DNA of 64,000 bases from Polytrichum commune (taxonomy: Eukaryota; Streptophyta; Polytrichopsida; Polytrichales; Polytrichaceae), in NCBI GenBank assembly GCA_950295325.1, contig OX485806.1, positions 20,150,001 through 20,214,000 of the forward strand, read 5' to 3'. This document shows positions 1-62,580 of this stretch, piece after piece. Below the pieces are notes generated by a model that searched no databases, was not told where the DNA came from, and worked only from the letters and a program-made list of their open reading frames with translations. The translations under genes and the position numbers were made by a program. How positions within the stretch are numbered: position 1 is the stretch's first letter; the number at the start of each line of letters is the position of its first letter.

Positions 1-1760
1 AACCAATATAGCTTTTGAACACAAAATCAATCAAGGCATGCTTTGATGTGTTCAAATCCCCTTTCAATTGGCATCAATGCCCATATTGATATGATTTATA
101 TACCTTGTAGCTGTACTCAGCGCTTAAAGTACAAACAAATTGAACAGAAATAAGAAACTTGAGAGCTCAACGTGAAAAATGTATAGATTGCCAGATCCTT
201 GGGTAAATACTTTAGTCTCTACATAGATAAGCAATGTTGGCAAAGAACAAGCGTTGATAAAACATCTAAGATCGGCATATAATTCTTACCAAATGGATAA
301 ACCTCACTACATATCTGTCCACAATGAGACAAAATATTGGACAGATTGCCACCGTTCACATCCAACAGTTAGGCACAACAATGGCTGTATAAAAACTAGC
401 AGGCATCATCAAAATTGAGAAGCCACACTCCATGGAGGTTGAGCTACCACATCTTGAAGCAAGAAACCCAAAACCATTAACAATAGGTAATTGCATTGCA
501 CGTCATGCTTCTCAAGAGATTGAATGAATGGAAATATGTTACAGAGCTTCTAATTATGGGGCTGTGGTATACAGAAGTATCTCTCTAGATACAAACCGCA
601 GACTTCAAGTCGGTTGTAAGAAGTTGGCTCCTCTAATTGTCTCCTTGAGATGCCACTTGTTGTCCTGTTCCTCTCCTAATCCACATTACCAGTAGCCAAA
701 TTGACAGGCTGAGAGTGGGGGAGGCTTGTACTATCCAACTGCTGAGAATCGTGTCCTCGTACTATCACACTTGTAGACATGTGATTAGGGAAATAGACAC
801 TCAAAAGTGTAACCAGGATTAACAGCAGAGTTGGCTTTGTATATTGAGGGATCCGCAAATACTGTCTATTGGCGTTCAATTAGGAGGAGAAATGAAAATT
901 TCAACCACCACTATTTCCAACAGTTTCAGAGACAACTGCCTTCACTCTGTCCCCATGTTCCCGAACCCTGTCAAAGAAGCCCATCTTCAGTTTCACTCGA
1001 CTTTGCCGCATTACCGCACTCCCCACCATCAGACAACGGAGTGCCTGCCTAAATTACTGAGTTGCAACTTGGCAGCTTGAGGCCTGGATGAATAAGGAAG
1101 GATGGAAATCCTAGAACCTTGCATCAATTCCCATCGCAGAGAAGTAAACCTCTGGCACTGAATTTCTCCAGGGCTTCTCAAGACCAAAAGCCCACCACAT
1201 CTTTCTAACACTCCTGCATTTAGTCCCCGACTACCACACCTTCCTGTCACTGACCTTAATTCTCAGTCTGCATTAGCACACAATGAGGACCAGTCCCTTT
1301 TGCACTGCAATCTCTTCTATAGAGGCAAGACTGTTGAACAAATGGAGACCAGTGCATTGGAGGATCCCTGTCAGCTGCATTGTGCAAGCCATTGCTCGTC
1401 ACTAGATATTGTTGACCACCACCAACTTTAAAGCAAGTCCGATCCGGCCTTGAAGCACCATTTTCCGCACCTTCCAAAGTGGTATATTTTGCTTCGAAAG
1501 CCAGAGAGTCAGTGCTACTTGTGACAACCTACAACGAGCCCATCACAGTAACGTATCCTAGTGAGAAACATATGACCTGATTCTTTAGAACAGTTCTAAT
1601 CGGCTAAACTGGATAAATCGGTCTGTTCTCACCCCATCACCGCTCTTAGAAAATGAGCTACATCGTCGTTCTGTAATGAGCAACACCCGGAGGCCACAGG
1701 GTTGCAGCAATCAAAACATTTGAAAAAGGCCTTTAACCTCTAGAGGAGACACACTTTTGA
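1..1760. other. 3' flank of the CDPK gene, no gene seen
   Basis: I see no convincing coding sequence here. The open frames are short, on both strands, and show no domain, repeat or codon pattern that stands out. The part next to the kinase stop codon (about 1,000-1,760) is probably its 3' untranslated region and terminator, but no unmistakable poly(A) signal could be fixed. Confidence 0.4.
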
Positions 1761-3347
1761 CTATCTCATTGAGTAGCTTGGAGGGTTCAAGGAACCATCT
1801 CTAAAGAGTCTCATACTCAGGCTGTTAAATCGGTCGCGCGAATACTGTCTGGAAGCTTTCCTCCAATCTGTACCTCTTCGCATCATAACAGCAAATTCGT
1901 CATAGCTGATACGGCCATCTTTGTCAGTGTCGACCTCCAGCAAAATTCCTTGTACAACATCTGACTCTCCGTCGGATCTAGGAGAGTCCATGGCATCACC
2001 GACGGCTTCTTTCAGCTCTCCTACTTCGATGTACCCACTGCCATCTGTGTCGAAGAATTCAAATGCTTTCCGAAGATGTTCGTCATCATCTAGCCGTTGC
2101 AAATGGATGGTTGCTGCAACAAACTCACTGTAGTTCAAACTCCCCTTGCCATCTACATCCGCCGCATCCATGAGCAACCGAGCCTCTTGTTCAGTCAATT
2201 GCGACCCAATTTGGATCAACCCAACCTTCAGCTTCTCAAAGGTAATGGTCCCACTGTTATCGGTGTCCATCTTCTCAAACATCTCCTTCAGACCTGCTAT
2301 TTCCTCGCCGCCCAAGGACTCCGCAATAACCTGCAAGGCTCTCTTCTTCAGTTTGTTCATTGCCGAAAACTGCTTTAACCTCGACCTCACGGCGTCCAGC
2401 GGAACGTTCGGGTTCTTCTTCGCATTCTGCAACCAGGGATGGTCTAGCACCTGTTGCGCATTGTAGCGAGCTTTCGGATCCGGCTCAAGCATGTGCCGCA
2501 CTAAAGACTTGGCAGACTCGGATACTTTAGGCCAAGGATCCCTTTTGAAGTCCAAAATACCCCGGAGAATCGCCTGTGCAACTCCTTGTTCTGTTTCTGC
2601 CCAGAATGGCGGAACACCACACAGTAAAATGTACAGGATAACTCCAGCACTCCACACATCTACCTCGGGTCCATAGTTCCTTTTCAACACTTCGGGTGCC
2701 ATGTAGTAAGGACTTCCCACGATTTCCGAAAACTTCTCTCCTGGCTTGAAGAAGACAGAAAGCCCAAAGTCGATGGCCTTCAACAGTGAGTCCTCATTTT
2801 TACTCGCAAACAAAAAGTTCTCCGGCTTGAGATCCCGGTGCATTACCCCTTGTCTATGGCAAACCTGCACGACCTCAACGATCGTGCGCGTCACCGCAGC
2901 TGCCCCTCGCTCCGTGTAATGTCCACGGGCGATAATCCGGTCGAAAAGCTCCCCACCTTCGCAAAGCTCCATAACCAAGTGCACGGCATGGTCATCCTCA
3001 TACGCACCCTTGAGAGTGACTATGTTGGGATGCTCAGGCAAATGGTGCATAATGGCCACCTCCCGCCGCACATCCTCTACGTCCACCGCTGTCCTCAGCT
3101 TCTTCTTCGAAATAGACTTACTTGCAAACACATCCTGCGTCTCCTTGTCCGTGCACAAGTATGTGATACCAAATTCACCACGCCCTAGCTCCCTCCCCAG
3201 CACATACTTGTCCGTTATATTCGCCTTTGGCTGGTTCTTCAGAATCTGCGCCCCATTTACCACATATCCATCTTGCGCAAACGGGTTCTGCTTTCCCCCC
3301 TTCCTGGACTTCTTCGCCGCCGACGACCCAACGCAACAGTTCCCCAT
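1761..3347 (-). CDS. Calcium-dependent protein kinase (CDPK/CPK), intronless
   Basis: A single uninterrupted frame of 528 codons encodes a complete CDPK, a Ser/Thr kinase fused to its own calmodulin-like calcium sensor. The chosen start gives MGNCC, the usual N-myristoylation and palmitoylation signal, so the protein is probably membrane-associated; an in-frame GTG 15 bases upstream is not a plausible start. The kinase domain spans about residues 48-306, with glycine loop GRGEFG (55-60), catalytic lysine near 77, HRDLKPEN (Asp near 172) and DFG (193-195). The autoinhibitory junction follows (about 316-350). Four canonical EF-hands begin near Asp361, Asp397, Asp433 and Asp473. The C-terminal tail is like that of the AtCPK7/8/10/13/32 branch (inference from memory). 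All key residues are present. The oddity is the absence of introns, because plant CDPKs of this kind usually have several; a retrocopy or a lineage-specific intron loss is possible. Confidence 0.97.
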
Positions 3348-3774
3348 CCTTCTCTCTCTCACCCTCTTCTCGTCTATTCACTCTCATTTAATCACCTTCT
3401 CCGCAAAACCCTACCTTCATAGTTCTCCACCTGCTAACAAACCCTCTCACGCCACACGACACCAATCCTCGCCTCCTTCCCCGAACCCACAAAACCCTAG
3501 CACCCCACGGGAGCTCCCACCTGATCAATCACCGGAGGCGATAGCGAGATACAGGTGCGGGCCCCCGAGCTCCGATCTAACTTACAACCTTACCTTCGAC
3601 GAGCGACCAACACCATAACGGCAAACCCACGAATTGCACCTGAGCTCCTGAGCGCCTCTGCCTTCAAACCCTCCTGAGCCGCCTTCATGGCGTACCAGGA
3701 GCTATCACGGGCTTAACTTCAGCAACAACGGTCTAGAATCTGGAGAGCGTTGAAGCATTTGATGTGCAGCACAT

Positions 3775-3777
<3 letters not shown>

Positions 3778-3807
<30 letters not shown>
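3778..3807. repeat. (AG)n microsatellite
   Basis: About fifteen uninterrupted AG units lie some 430 bp upstream of the CDPK start codon. On the gene's strand this is a CT run. Confidence 0.95.
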
Positions 3808-3808
<1 letters not shown>

Positions 3809-4009
3809 AACGGATTGCACTCTGCGAGGGCCTCCCTCCTCATGAGACCATAACGATGGCTTCCTCCTGCCCTTCCCCCTCTCCCCGTCTTACTCTCCAA
3901 TTCGCGGTTGCGCTTCCTTGACTTGGAGATCGCGGTGACGCGTGTCCCTGATGCTTCCGCTGCTTCTGCTTCTGCTTCTTCTTCTCCACCAAAACTCTTT
4001 AAGTTAAAA

Positions 4010-4034
4010 CATCATCATCATCATCATCATCATC
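4010..4034. repeat. (CAT)n microsatellite
   Basis: Eight perfect CAT units lie upstream of the CDPK gene. They generate artificial histidine or aspartate runs in overlapping open frames. Confidence 0.95.
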
Positions 4035-4309
4035 GATCCCGAGTTCCTTCAGAGTGCAGTGACTTTCCACCAGATTCACGTATCGTGGGCACCTTCCATT
4101 GGTAAAGGAATCCTGCGCAGAAGCTTCGATGAAGACCCAGTTCCCTTCAAACCCTCCTGCCGCCATAGCCAGATGGGATTTTGTACGCCAGGACCCGCAG
4201 GTGGAGAACTCGTGACGAATGTCCAAGGACGGTGCAAGGATGAAGCAAGCGTTTCATCCATCCTCCCATGAACTACACCAACCATTCTCTCTAATGTCAC
4301 CACTTCTAT

Positions 4310-57539: not shown

Positions 57540-57593
57540 CACGAGGAAAAAGAACACGAGGAGGAAGAGCACCAGTGCGGAGCGGGAGGGAGC
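57540..57593. repeat. 54-bp direct repeat R2 bounding captured DRE2
   Basis: Identical over 54 bp to R3 at 62,177-62,230, same orientation. It starts CACGAGGAAAAAGAACACG. It abuts the last coding bases of the DRE2 fragment. Confidence 0.93.
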
Positions 57594-58125
57594 ATCTGCA
57601 ACCAGCAATGATCCTTCAAGAGTAATCTGCAAATTCCATCACAAACATGATCATTTTCTCCCATTAACTTGGAGTAGTACAATCATATGCACCTACTGAA
57701 AACGAAGACAATTCCTTGCTGTGGGAGTCCAAATTCGACGGAAAGACGGAAATACGGATTCCATTTCCGTATTTTACCTTGCTTATGTGAAGATAATAGG
57801 GTCTCTTAGGACAAAATTAATTGTACCAGGAAATAGAGTATTCTAACCCCGCCTCGTGCGATAAAACGACTCTAAATAAGTACTATGACCGGTCCGTCAA
57901 ATAGGATGGGCGGACCATGTAATCATGGTCCGGACCAAGTAACGGACGCACCAAGATTACCCAACGGCCCGGAAGTGGCGGTTATAACGGGCCTTATGAC
58001 GGTTGGGGGAAAAAGAAAGCCGTTGGTAAAAATGTTAGTAAACCCGTTGGTGAGAACCGCCGGAAAACGGTTGGTAACCGTTTTCCGTTAAACCAAGCGG
58101 TAACAGGGGAAGGAAGAGGGAGGAA

Positions 58126-58136
58126 GGATATTTAAG
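58126..58136 (+). promoter_or_regulatory. TATA-like box upstream of the 690-codon ORF
   Basis: GATATTTAAG lies about 235 bp upstream of the ATG at 58,366, in a region otherwise GC- and purine-rich. A pyrimidine-rich stretch (CCTTCCTTCTCCCTCCC) follows about 10 bp downstream. Two imperfect GCAGTGGGnTTGCnGGGACTC units (58,225 and 58,265) sit between it and the ORF. Confidence 0.45.
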
Positions 58137-58365
58137 GGTCCCTTCCTTCTCCCTCCCACTTTTTTCTGAAAAAGGCAACCTGTTGAGAGAACGAGTGGTG
58201 AGGTGTTAATTCTTTCGAGCCGCCAGCAGTGGGATTGCTGGGACTCTGCACTTTTCAGTCACCGGCAGTGGGCTTGCCGGGACTCTGTGGCAATTAGACG
58301 GAAGGGAAGGGATCCGGGAGAGAGGGAGTTTCCGTGGTCGAGCCGGAAACTGAGGGAAGAGGAAA

Positions 58366-60438
58366 ATGCCGGAAGCACGGGAAGAGGATCAGAGGGAACC
58401 TATCCCGGTTCCGCTCAAAGCCCTCATCCCTGCAATTCCGAGGGAGGATAGGGAGCTACAGGAGCTCGCGGAGGATCTCCGGGTTATGGGCTGCGCGGGG
58501 TTGCTAGCCAAACCCTGGAACCTCCGAGCCGAAGATACTCTCCGAGAGTTTAAGTTTGAGAGAGGAAATCAGTGGCTAGGGACAAAGAGGAGAGATCCGG
58601 AACACTGGACTCCGGATATTTGGAACAGGGTCTACGGGTTTCCTCGGGGGATTACAGAAGGATGGGCCGGCCGCCGCGACGGCTTGTTCGCTGGAAAATT
58701 TAGAGGGGACGCGGATCCGAAGGACGGCTTCCACCCCGGGAACTGCCGGAACCTGAGAGAGAGGAGGGTGTTGGAATTCCTCCTACCTATCCTTAACCCG
58801 GACAAGCCGAAGCGGATTAGCCTTACCATGGCTAACACGCTGTTCGGTGCCATGTCCGGAGTCCGGCCTGTGAACTGGGGGCTGATTATCCAGGAGATAG
58901 TGGGCCGGGCCCTCCCCCATATTGGCCGGAAACCCTCCTTCCTCTCCCCCTTCATTTTGCATCTCTACCAGCATTTCGACTGCATCACGGCCGAGGAGGA
59001 GGACCTACTCACAATAGCGGCGGACGAGGTCACCTACAAGCTGCTTCCGGAAGCCGGAGACGTCGAGACGGAGACCTCCAGCGACCCTATTCTTCCGGAA
59101 GCACCTCCCTCGTCACCCGGAAGCCCGCCGCCAACCGTCTCGAGGCCACTCTCTCCTCCTCCCCCTCACCAACATCCGGAAGCCAGACCCAGCCAGGAGA
59201 CCCCATGGCGGAATGTGGATCTATCTGCTTGGGACTTTCCGGAGAACCCGTTCAAACGGTTCCAGGAGGGGATGGAGGACCTCAAGACCCAGTATTACCG
59301 ACTGGAGCACATCGTCAGGGGGGCAAACCATGCTCTGGACGACTGCGGACCCGGAAACATTCTCCGGGAATTGGCAAAGAGGGCGGACCGGAAGGAGCTG
59401 GAGCAGGCCAAGACGGAGAATGCCCACCTCACCGCACAGATAGCGGCCATGACTCAGGAGCTGAGTCAGAAGAGCGAGGAGATCCGGACGTACCATGCGG
59501 AGCAGGCAGTGCTCTTCAGCCGGATCCGGGAACTGGTGGGTCATCCGGCGGAGATCGTTAACAAGGCACATCTCTACGACCGGATGATGGAGTCCGGAGA
59601 TCCCGCTTCCGCCAGGCAGACCCTCCCCATCCTCGTGAAGTATTCACGGACGATGAAGGATCTCCTGGCGGAAATCCAGAGGGTGGTCCCGCCAAGCGGA
59701 ACACCGCGGAGGGTGCTCTATCCGGGTCCGCCAGGGTCACCAACCAGAACCCTCTACGAGGTGGTTGGTGAAGTAGCCCTGGTTCAGAATCCGCCGTCCT
59801 CTGCAGGACCCAGCCAGCAGGGAGGCGGCTCTCGGCCTGGTAGTTCCGGAGGGGCTCCGGAAAGGGTCCGTTCTCCCCAGGTGAGGCGGAAGAGCACCGG
59901 GTCGGTCCGATCCGGAAGGGGCCGGTCCCCTGTTCCGCGGAACTCGGATAGGTCCCGGACTCCGGATAGGGCTAGGACGCTGATCCGGCACCAGACTTCC
60001 GATCGGGAGGCAACTCCGAGTAGGGGCAAGGCCCCTATGACCCACGCCTCGCCATCGTCTCCACGGGACTGCCAAATGGTGAGTCCCTTTCCTCCGCCAC
60101 CCTCAAGGGCGGCCTCCAACAGGGATCCGCAGACGGCTTCGATCTCGGGCGGACGGAATCCGGAGCAGGGCACCGGAAGCGATCCTTCTCCAGTCCGAAG
60201 CATCCGGATGGGGACAGCTTCCGGAACCCCAGGGACAGTCTCCGGAACACCAGGGACCGCTACCCCACGGACCGAGAGGGCAGCGGATTCGGAGGACGAG
60301 GTTGCTCCGTCTCCGAACATGAGGAGGATGCTCACGCGGCTGCAGAAGGCATCGCCGGCAGGGGGCTCATCCGCCGTCAGCGGGTTAGGGAGTCACTCAA
60401 AGGAGGGATCGGCTCCGAAGAAGCACCGGTCTTCTTAG
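58366..60438 (+). CDS. 690-residue protein of the CCGGA-rich element, function unknown
   Basis: One intact frame from MPEAREEDQREP to a TAG stop. Residues about 30-230 form a globular, conserved-looking domain (GLLAKPWNL, DIWNRVYGFPRGITEGW, FLLPILNPDKPKRISLTMAN, VRPVNWGLIIQEIV, FLSPFILHLYQHF). Its rhythm resembles the 'putative plant transposon protein' and plant-mobile-domain families; this is a resemblance, not an assignment. A proline-rich linker (about 240-300) leads to a coiled-coil region (about 310-450). The C-terminal third is Ser/Arg/Pro-rich with many RSRTPDR-like units, suggesting nucleic-acid or protein binding. No catalytic motif is seen. CCGGA words occur in all three codon phases, so the DNA bias is not a codon preference. 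It may be a gag-like or accessory element protein. Confidence 0.65.
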   Translation: MPEAREEDQREPIPVPLKALIPAIPREDRELQELAEDLRVMGCAGLLAKPWNLRAEDTLREFKFERGNQWLGTKRRDPEHWTPDIWNRVYGFPRGITEGWAGRRDGLFAGKFRGDADPKDGFHPGNCRNLRERRVLEFLLPILNPDKPKRISLTMANTLFGAMSGVRPVNWGLIIQEIVGRALPHIGRKPSFLSPFILHLYQHFDCITAEEEDLLTIAADEVTYKLLPEAGDVETETSSDPILPEAPPSSPGSPPPTVSRPLSPPPPHQHPEARPSQETPWRNVDLSAWDFPENPFKRFQEGMEDLKTQYYRLEHIVRGANHALDDCGPGNILRELAKRADRKELEQAKTENAHLTAQIAAMTQELSQKSEEIRTYHAEQAVLFSRIRELVGHPAEIVNKAHLYDRMMESGDPASARQTLPILVKYSRTMKDLLAEIQRVVPPSGTPRRVLYPGPPGSPTRTLYEVVGEVALVQNPPSSAGPSQQGGGSRPGSSGGAPERVRSPQVRRKSTGSVRSGRGRSPVPRNSDRSRTPDRARTLIRHQTSDREATPSRGKAPMTHASPSSPRDCQMVSPFPPPPSRAASNRDPQTASISGGRNPEQGTGSDPSPVRSIRMGTASGTPGTVSGTPGTATPRTERAADSEDEVAPSPNMRRMLTRLQKASPAGGSSAVSGLGSHSKEGSAPKKHRSS

Positions 60439-60511
60439 TTAGGAGAGTAGCTAGATTAGTTAGGCAGAATAGAGGTAGGCAGGTAGGACTTAGGAGTTTT
60501 TGAAGACGAGT

Positions 60512-60726
60512 AATAAAATTTTCTCTTGGTAGTGTCAGCGGAAAACCCGGATCTGGATCCGGGAAATCCGGGAGACTGGGTGTAGTTAGGGTTTTCTTAA
60601 GCGGCGGCCGCTTGGGCCGCCGCCCTCAGTTTAGGGATTTTTGAGCCTCTACTTAAGGCTGAATAAGGAGCTTGAGAAGGGTTCCTTCTCAATTGTTGTA
60701 TTGCGATTACTCCTATTCTGAATAAA
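60512..60726 (+). terminator. Poly(A)-like signals downstream of the 690-codon ORF
   Basis: AATAAA occurs at 60,512-60,517 (74 bp after the stop) and again at 60,721-60,726. The second follows a TTGTTGTATTGCGATTACTC stretch and precedes a T/C-rich segment, like a plant polyadenylation region. Between them lies a perfect GC palindrome (GGCGGCCGC core, near 60,603). Confidence 0.45.
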
Positions 60727-60839
60727 TGTCTTTGCTTCTCACTCCTTGACTTCTCTTTATTGATGTTTGCGTGAATGATCCGGAGATTGTTGGTGGAAGA
60801 AAAAAAAAAAGCATGAGGGATAGGAGTTCCGGATAGGAC

Positions 60840-61410
60840 ATGAGAGAGGAGACCCGGATCAGATCCGGTTATCGCCTTGTAGATCCTCTATGAGTGTAGT
60901 GGGAGGGAAACCTCACTAATCCGGTGGGTTGGGTAACGTCTAGGTGGGATAGCCGCTGGGAAGATTGGGTGAGATCCGGAAGGGATCCGGACTTACGCCA
61001 ATCTGATCTTCTGAAGAGGTCCCACCGTCCTTAGACGGACCTATCTGGATTGGTGGTACGGATCGCCCAGTTAGCTCAGATTGAGTAGAATCCAAGGTAG
61101 AGGTAGCCGGACAGATCCGTCGTACGGAGAAGGAGAGGTCCGGATCAGTAAGGATTCCGGATTGGAGGCCACCTCCGGGGTGCAGTAGGAAGAGATCCTC
61201 ATTGTTCCGGGTGTTTGGGTAACATCCCGGTGAGACAGCCGTGGGGGAGATTAGGCCAAGGTCCGGAAGGGATCCGGACTTAACTGATCTTCCGAAGAGG
61301 TATCATCACTGGTGGACGGGGCAATCCAGAAAGTGGTACGGGTCACCCACTCATCCCGTCGAGTCAGATCTCCGGCCAGAATCCGGACTCCTTTGGTCAC
61401 TATAGTCCCA
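60840..61410 (+). repeat. Tandem duplication of a unit of about 286 bp, non-coding
   Basis: Two units of roughly 75 percent identity share, in order, a GGATCAG word, TTGGGTAACnTC, GGTGnGAnAGCCG, TCCGGAAGGGATCCGGACTT, CTGATCTTCnGAAGAGGT, TGGTACGGnTCnCCCA and AGAATCC. They begin near 60,840 and 61,126. They lie between the poly(A)-like signals and the right end of the element, and may be structured RNA or integration-related sequence. Confidence 0.75.
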
Positions 61411-62176
61411 AGAAACAACCCGGATCTCTCTGTGTGACCTGCCAAGACGGATCTGATCAATCCGGATTGATTGTGAGGGAGGTTCCGGATTGCAACCTTA
61501 TCAAGGACGTCTTCACCGGAAGAAACCACCTATTCTAGAGGGTAGACGTAGAGGGGTGGGTAAGCATTATAATTAGGACCTAGAAATATCATCCGGAAAG
61601 GCACACTCCGGAAAAAGGCTAAGAGTGTCCCCAAAAACCAAAAATCCGGAAATTTGGCTAAGGAAGAGGAAATAAGCAGGTACGGAGAGTTTTAGACCTC
61701 CTACACTTCACAGAATCCTTGGACGATACTAGGGTCATCCGGACAACCCGGATTAGGCACTTAAAACCGCCAATCCGGATATTTTGGTGTTCGCGTGTTC
61801 CCACACTTGCAGCAGTCGCAATACGTAAGGTAACCTACCTTTTCTCCAAGCTTGAAAGTAGGCATGCCCCTGTGTGGGCATCCAACACACCGGAAGGCAT
61901 CTCCCAACCTACACTGCAACGAACAATAGAATCCGTCAATAGAAGCTTCAAAAAAGTGAATCATAAACATTGTCTTCAAAGCATAATAACCAGAAATAAA
62001 TTTCAATTCGTCTGAGTCACTCACACTTCCACAGGCTGACTTCGGATTGCTGATTTGTGCAGTTGTAAGCCTGGTTTCCTCTTGCTTCGCCTCAATCTCT
62101 GCCTGCCCACATGAGTAGTTCTTGCAGGCCTTCTTAGCAACACCACAGTTATCTGCGACTGCAAATGCCAGAAGTA

Positions 62177-62230
62177 CACGAGGAAAAAGAACACGAGGAG
62201 GAAGAGCACCAGTGCGGAGCGGGAGGGAGC
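62177..62230. repeat. 54-bp direct repeat R3 bounding captured DRE2
   Basis: Identical to R2 (57,540-57,593). On its right it continues with GTCGGAGGCGAGTCGGGCGA, which R1 also has. It adjoins the intron 5' of the first DRE2 exon. Confidence 0.93.
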
Positions 62231-62580
62231 GTCGGAGGCGAGTCGGGCGAGTCGGGGAAGACAAGTTGAAGAGCAGGAGATTAGCTTGCACTTCTTATGC
62301 AACCAAGAACCCCCGCGCACAAGCTCGGCGCCCTAACGTGATTTCAGTTTTGTCAAGAGGTCATGCTTGGTGTCAACTTTGGTTTTAGTAACTTCATGCA
62401 ACTCGTGTAGCTTGTGTGGCCTTTGTGTGAGCTGTTTTCTCCACTTTTACCTATGCATTACTGGTATGTGTTAGAAGTTTCATGATGTTCGGCATAATTG
62501 GACTTTAATTTCACTTCTTTTCAACATGCTTTACCATGAATTTCCAAAAAAAATCGGCTTTCCTTTTTATAATTATTTTA

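Follow-up and report, generated by a model that had tools for sequence, protein, structure and literature searches.

How does a mobile element spread when it carries a single long gene and no known transposition enzyme? The question is raised by a unit of 4086 bp in the plant Polytrichum commune, found in a 64,000-nucleotide stretch of contig OX485806.1 (positions 20,150,001 to 20,214,000; hereafter the window, on contig C4). The element occupies positions 57720..61805 of the forward strand. It begins with TGTGGGA (57720..57726) and ends with the inverted match TCCCACA (61799..61805), giving a terminal inverted repeat of 7-8 bp, and the sequence on either side reads as a target-site duplication, CTTGC (57715..57719 and 61806..61810). 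Boundaries, length and duplication are as described in an earlier note on this DNA. Integrases of the long terminal repeat (LTR) type leave TG...CA ends and 5-bp duplications. We tentatively favour, at somewhat less than even confidence, the reading that this is a high-copy plant transposable element moving as a bare DNA unit, with a Gypsy-type integrase acting in trans and a TCCGGA-binding coiled-coil protein of its own.

The note had proposed looking for other copies that share these ends and carry separate 5-bp duplications, and such copies were found. The 407.8-Mb assembly (64 contigs) was searched with the whole element, its open reading frame (ORF), its 3' end and its 5' end; 64 of 1467 candidates were scored for the ORF, 40 of 406 for the 3' end and 40 of 340 for the 5' end, and as 36 of 711 first-look candidates were scored for the whole element, the copy count is a lower bound. 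In the whole-element search, 32 of the 37 listed matches, the element itself included, covered positions 1-4086 with lengths of 4083-4136 bp. Merging the whole-element, ORF and 3'-end searches gave at least ~88 distinct copies. One or more of these may have been entered twice, and for 22 the 3' end is the only part known. Flanks were read at 25 distinct loci (the eight best DNA matches and rows 2-21 of the ORF list, with three in common). Ends were lost at two of these (L017 and L020). The duplication was perfect in 18 of the 23 two-ended copies, carried one mismatch in four and was absent in one (L023), and no strong target preference was seen across the 23 insertion sites. Among singleton changes, 285 of 450 were C>T or G>A, the pattern that past methylation would give.

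The ends themselves appear to be what matters in cis. Two derivatives that lack the ORF, one of 1.9 kb (L029:180-2099, the same as L025:8279 onward, with ends as in the full element) and one of 1.7 kb (L032:3729-5461), are flanked by perfect duplications of their own, ATGCT and CGTGG, respectively. Sequences at the ends thus seem to be enough in cis, without the ORF. The terminal ~110 bp on the right keep 97% identity even in a derivative whose internal identity is mostly 76-82%.

The earlier note had also reported a single intact ORF of 690 codons without a known transposition enzyme, and this holds. The ORF (58366..60438, forward strand) is under strong purifying selection. Divergence among 23 copies was 0.022, 0.014 and 0.090 at codon positions 1, 2 and 3; for non-coding DNA it was 0.047 on the 5' side and 0.063 on the 3' side. 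The mean ratio of nonsynonymous to synonymous substitution rates (dN/dS) was 0.087 in the 16 stop-free copies of the 23, seven having been dropped (four with one stop and three with frameshifts); by part, it was 0.039 in residues 1-235, 0.087 in the coiled coil and 0.254 in the tail. Among the 64 best ORF matches, a set biased towards intact copies, 42 were free of stops and 22 were not (TAG in 17, TGA in five). This conservation implies that the protein is needed for spread.

Judged by its sequence, the protein belongs to a family with hundreds of public relatives and of unrecognised type. Database searches gave 50, 210 and 440 relatives at thresholds of 0.01, 0.001 and 10, and no Pfam domain occurs in those listed (50, 120 and 120, respectively). 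The window ORF had no integrase match in Pfam, only weak matches to coiled-coil families, and scans of 51 relatives likewise gave weak matches (best E 0.0007), largely coiled-coil among the 25 of 102 families listed. The conserved N-terminal part (about residues 25-230, 58438..59055) is predicted, at low confidence, to be helical; in seven relatives this part gave no Pfam match at E up to 10. A likeness to Transposase_32/Athila ORF1 found no support in Pfam, PF20167 and PF03078 being unmatched at E up to 10 by the window ORF and by these seven N-terminal parts. Residues 295-440 (59248..59685) form a long helical, coiled-coil-like part. A sequence search of the PDB with the protein gave chance-level matches only (E 0.46 or worse). 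Two AlphaFold models, both of low confidence, have helices in the N-terminal part and extended ones over residues 295-440 (mean predicted local distance difference test scores, pLDDT, of 48.6 and 49.8).

The protein might itself be a recombinase of an undescribed class, which would make the 4.1-kb element autonomous. It is the product of the sole long sense ORF, it is strongly conserved, most of the best-matching copies are stop-free, and the N-terminal part of its relatives matches nothing in Pfam. However, no clear D/D/E-like catalytic set is evident by eye among the conserved residues, although a few acidic positions do not vary (E61, E211 and D213 in the numbering of A2's first sequence). 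The layout of coiled coil, proline-rich part and basic tail looks structural or nucleic-acid binding, and the structure models are poor. We regard an own recombinase as the least probable of the explanations weighed here.

What the element has in abundance is a short palindrome. The earlier note had described a bias towards the word CCGGA in coding and non-coding parts alike; this was borne out and sharpened to TCCGGA, which occurs 34 times between 57929 and 61779, with one occurrence only before 58596. A first-order Markov model predicts 2.69 (maximum nine in 500 simulations), and the next commonest hexamer palindrome in the element occurs seven times. The density is 8.3 per kb in the element compared to 0.15 per kb in the rest of the window. 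All 23 aligned copies hold 30-39 TCCGGA sites, a 1920-bp derivative without the ORF holds 25, and within the ORF CCGGA falls in all three reading frames. CpGs in the non-coding motifs varied less (0.0156, 42 columns) than other non-coding CpGs (0.0343, 170 columns); in the ORF the difference was small (0.0285 against 0.0361). The note's picture of a unit foreign to its host is better put as a high-copy family with a dense palindromic motif. Palindromes at this density, taken with the coiled coil, point to a protein that may act as a dimer on the DNA of its own element. A link of TCCGGA to LBD transcription factors was considered, but a literature search gave no usable support.

The remaining features are all on the forward strand. 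Eight AACGG/CCGTT cores form a ~150-bp cluster (57941..58089) that resembles MYB3R/MSA-like G2/M promoter elements. The cluster lies upstream of a TATA-like box, TATTTAAG (58129..58136), which by eye marks a probable promoter. Also by eye, AATAAA at 60721..60726 is a probable poly(A) signal, and a second AATAAA lies at 60512-60517. The 3' tail contains two diverged, TCCGGA-rich direct repeats (60894-60969 and 61180-61255, spaced by 286 bp; together 60894..61255). An RNA gene was considered and rejected: Rfam gave two matches far below gathering scores, and there was no tRNA.

This layout bears on a route through RNA, in which a Gag-like protein would package its own transcript via UCCGGA repeats and retrotransposon enzymes would act in trans. 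All but one of the 34 TCCGGA sites come after the probable start of transcription, the purifying selection is of the cis type, and the 3' tail (60820-61480) folds better than shuffled sequence (z -2.9, 0 of 20 shuffles). The copies fall into two subfamilies, plus mosaics (for example L009, L010, L025 and L026) such as template switching would give; the N-terminal coding part is strongly diverged, mostly at silent sites. Against this, the element lacks a terminal repeat from which reverse transcription could regenerate the promoter end, 16 TCCGGA sites follow the probable poly(A) signal, the mosaics could arise by gene conversion too, and a Gag match is absent from the Pfam results for the window ORF and the seven N-terminal parts. 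Extra proline-rich or coiled ORFs do occur in plant retroelements: the available part of one account describes an Athila ORF with Transposase_32 (PF20167, related to PF03078) and a 5' ORF in Tekay, whose proline-rich protein combines separate helices with extensive disorder and is conserved within its group (PMC11728184). These resemble the present ORF in encoding proteins of unknown function outside gag-pol (PMC11728184). In contrast, as far as that part of the account goes, theirs sit in LTR elements with gag-pol, whereas the present ORF stands alone and its N-terminal part has no Pfam match. On balance, we find the RNA route rather improbable.

The TG...CA ends with their short inverted match, and the 5-bp duplications, would also suit solo LTRs, left by a retrotransposon with giant 4.1-kb, ORF-bearing LTRs whose intact elements are rare. 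Repeat comparison within the unit revealed no direct repeat joining its two ends, and the absence of internal LTRs is what one LTR would show. The earlier suggestion of a non-autonomous LTR-like element is upheld in respect of the ends: ends and duplications are integrase-like, but there are no internal LTRs, and no LTR pair was demonstrated among the ~88 copies. TRIM, LARD and TR-GAG elements are non-autonomous LTR retrotransposons that make 5-bp duplications, are mobilised in trans and keep direct terminal repeats. The element is like them in its duplications and, on the favoured reading, in being moved in trans; it differs in that direct terminal repeats were not found.

Four same-strand neighbour pairs less than 40 kb apart occur among the ~88 copies, and three of them, once read, proved not to be LTR pairs in the listed combination. 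The pair C7:34948994/34978202 (29-kb span), a candidate for a giant autonomous version or an LTR pair, is one copy split by a nested Gypsy insertion of ~25 kb (L033:1442 to L035:6903) with reverse transcriptase, RNase H, integrase and Gag domains. The Gypsy element, which has TGTCGC...GCGACA ends and is flanked by a separate GAGGA duplication, interrupts the host element at its positions 1280-1284; the AGGTG duplication further out is that of the split copy. In C3:10130143/10132960, the second member is the ORF-less derivative with its own CGTGG duplication. In C5:7035664/7052899, which includes L023, CGTGT lies beyond the far end and CGACC before L023; since these outer flanks differ, C5:7035664 and L023 are not one insertion. 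At C3:10270838/10272818, the ORF and a 3' end lie 2 kb apart and are probably one copy. The flanks of 20 compared loci have other repeats in common at varying distances, but no common sequence in register with the element's ends. In addition, if one LTR held the promoter, the 2.1-kb ORF and the poly(A) signal, its R would be ~2.6 kb.

Other observations lean the opposite way. In the 5'-end search, six 3' ends that have no ORF match found 5' partners, at spans of 1941, 5051, 5093, 5120, 11187 and 30790 bp, and two-ended units of 5.1, 11.2 and 30.8 kb, known from end matches alone, are what intact LTR elements could look like. Three of them are same-end units of ~5.1 kb (C2:58644479-58649529, C2:33300261-33305380 and C1:37239137-37244229) and one is of 11.2 kb (C7:27530897-27542083); none of these four is represented in the set of 64 ORF matches that were scored. 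On C5, the duplication-less L023 (7057012-7052900) has a same-strand 5' end 9.4 kb upstream, at C5:7066453, and on C2 two 5' ends, known from end matches alone, lie 3.7 kb apart (14813204 and 14816925). The same-strand ends clustered around L023 (C5:7035664-7066453) could reflect nested insertions or an LTR arrangement. Weighing both sides, we disfavour solo LTRs and consider them unlikely.

We therefore return to the favoured reading, a bare DNA unit moved in trans. The ends are integrase-like, the element has no enzyme of its own, and ORF-less derivatives have been mobilised; from these three points we infer an enzyme in trans. It would be a DDE enzyme of the Gypsy-integrase type that recognises the ends and inserts the unit, and it might be supplied either by a retrotransposon of the Gypsy group or by a DNA transposon resembling Ginger2/TDD. 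The nested Gypsy element on C7, with its integrase domain and GAGGA duplication, indicates that such integrases were active in this genome at some time. The protein that the element encodes would then not serve as recombinase; it would be a coiled-coil factor acting as a dimer on the element's TCCGGA repeats, whether for assembly of the transposition complex or for keeping the element free of silencing. Both an enzyme borrowed in trans and a new group of DNA transposons had been put forward in the earlier note, and both readings survive; its interpretation as a whole is partly supported.

Two known systems offer partial parallels. According to the available part of the source, TDD-4 and TDD-5 of Dictyostelium encode Gypsy-like integrases and have TGTNR ends and a 5-bp duplication, and Ginger2/TDD elements have 4-5 bp duplications and terminal inverted repeats of ~50-180 bp (PMC2836005). 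The present element is like Ginger2, TDD-4 and TDD-5 in its TGTNR ends, in its 5-bp duplications (TDD-4 and TDD-5) and in being a DNA unit without LTRs (PMC2836005). It differs, on the same part of the source, in that those elements encode a Gypsy-like integrase and have longer inverted repeats, whereas its ORF has no integrase match. The second parallel concerns the protein. VANC proteins of VANDAL elements bind their own element and prevent its silencing, and VANDAL elements, like the present one, combine a non-transposase protein with a dense short motif, partly in tandem repeats (available part of PMC5735166). As described there, the VANC21 motif differs in having nine bases, in the same orientation and mainly in non-coding sequence, whereas TCCGGA also fills the ORF. 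A further difference is that no transposase-bearing autonomous member is known for the present element. Mutator-type target duplications are longer than 5 bp.

Several points weigh against the favoured reading. No enzyme with matching ends was found in the sequence examined. The terminal inverted repeat of 7-8 bp is short compared to ~40-270 bp in Ginger (available part of PMC2836005). That many copies are under strong purifying selection points to a preference for action in cis, which is less expected for a trans-acting protein of a DNA transposon. Binding of TCCGGA by the protein is itself a prediction. CCGG outside the hexamer is conserved too (0.0183, 68 columns), so the constraint may exceed the palindrome, which weakens the claim for the hexamer itself, and the first 876 bp hold one TCCGGA only, which is odd for sites that bridge the ends. 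The main hole in the argument against LTRs is the arrangement on C5: L023, alone among the complete copies in lacking a duplication, might form the right-hand member of an LTR pair starting at C5:7066453, if AACGT precedes 7066453.

No partner enzyme was found by Pfam among ten ORFs in the flanks of copies. Eight had no useful match, and the other two were a CACTA transposase (Transposase_21, L028) and a DUF4218 protein (L008) from the same locus. The flanks of L012, L019, L021 and L023 have related ORFs in common (77-80% DNA identity, without useful Pfam match), another repeat near the copies. One scan each of viral contigs and genome contigs confirmed no relatives of the element.

The insertion site had been placed inside a DRE2 intron, and this is partly sustained. 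Minus-strand exons at window positions 61761-62291 match the C-terminal part of DRE2/CIAPIN1 (Pfam 2e-14) and adjoin the element, which by eye lies just past a splice-donor-like AAG|GTAGG, but no last exon was seen by eye beyond it. A tyrosine stands where one cysteine of the conserved motif would be expected. With no last exon seen and this change, the exons may represent only part of a gene. Two copies of a 57-bp sequence, in direct orientation and 98% identical, flank the region (57540-57596 and 62177-62233, ~120 bp to the left and 370 bp to the right of the element). The window also encodes a calcium-dependent kinase with EF hands, a sign of a probable land-plant host.

In our judgement the pairing is unusual: retrovirus-type ends and duplications without terminal repeats, together with a single conserved non-enzyme protein and a dense palindrome in that protein's own gene. 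A literature search, judged by titles, found no published account of such an element, which is no proof of absence. It is possible, though doubtful, that the family represents a separate class, LTR-less and inserted by an integrase-type reaction, whose only protein would be a new sequence-specific DNA or chromatin factor that marks, protects or assembles its own DNA through TCCGGA spread over the whole element, coding part included. Finding a partner integrase would show that in a plant such enzymes move DNA without LTRs. Should the protein bind TCCGGA, the family would be a simple and readily tested instance of self-marking by a mobile element.

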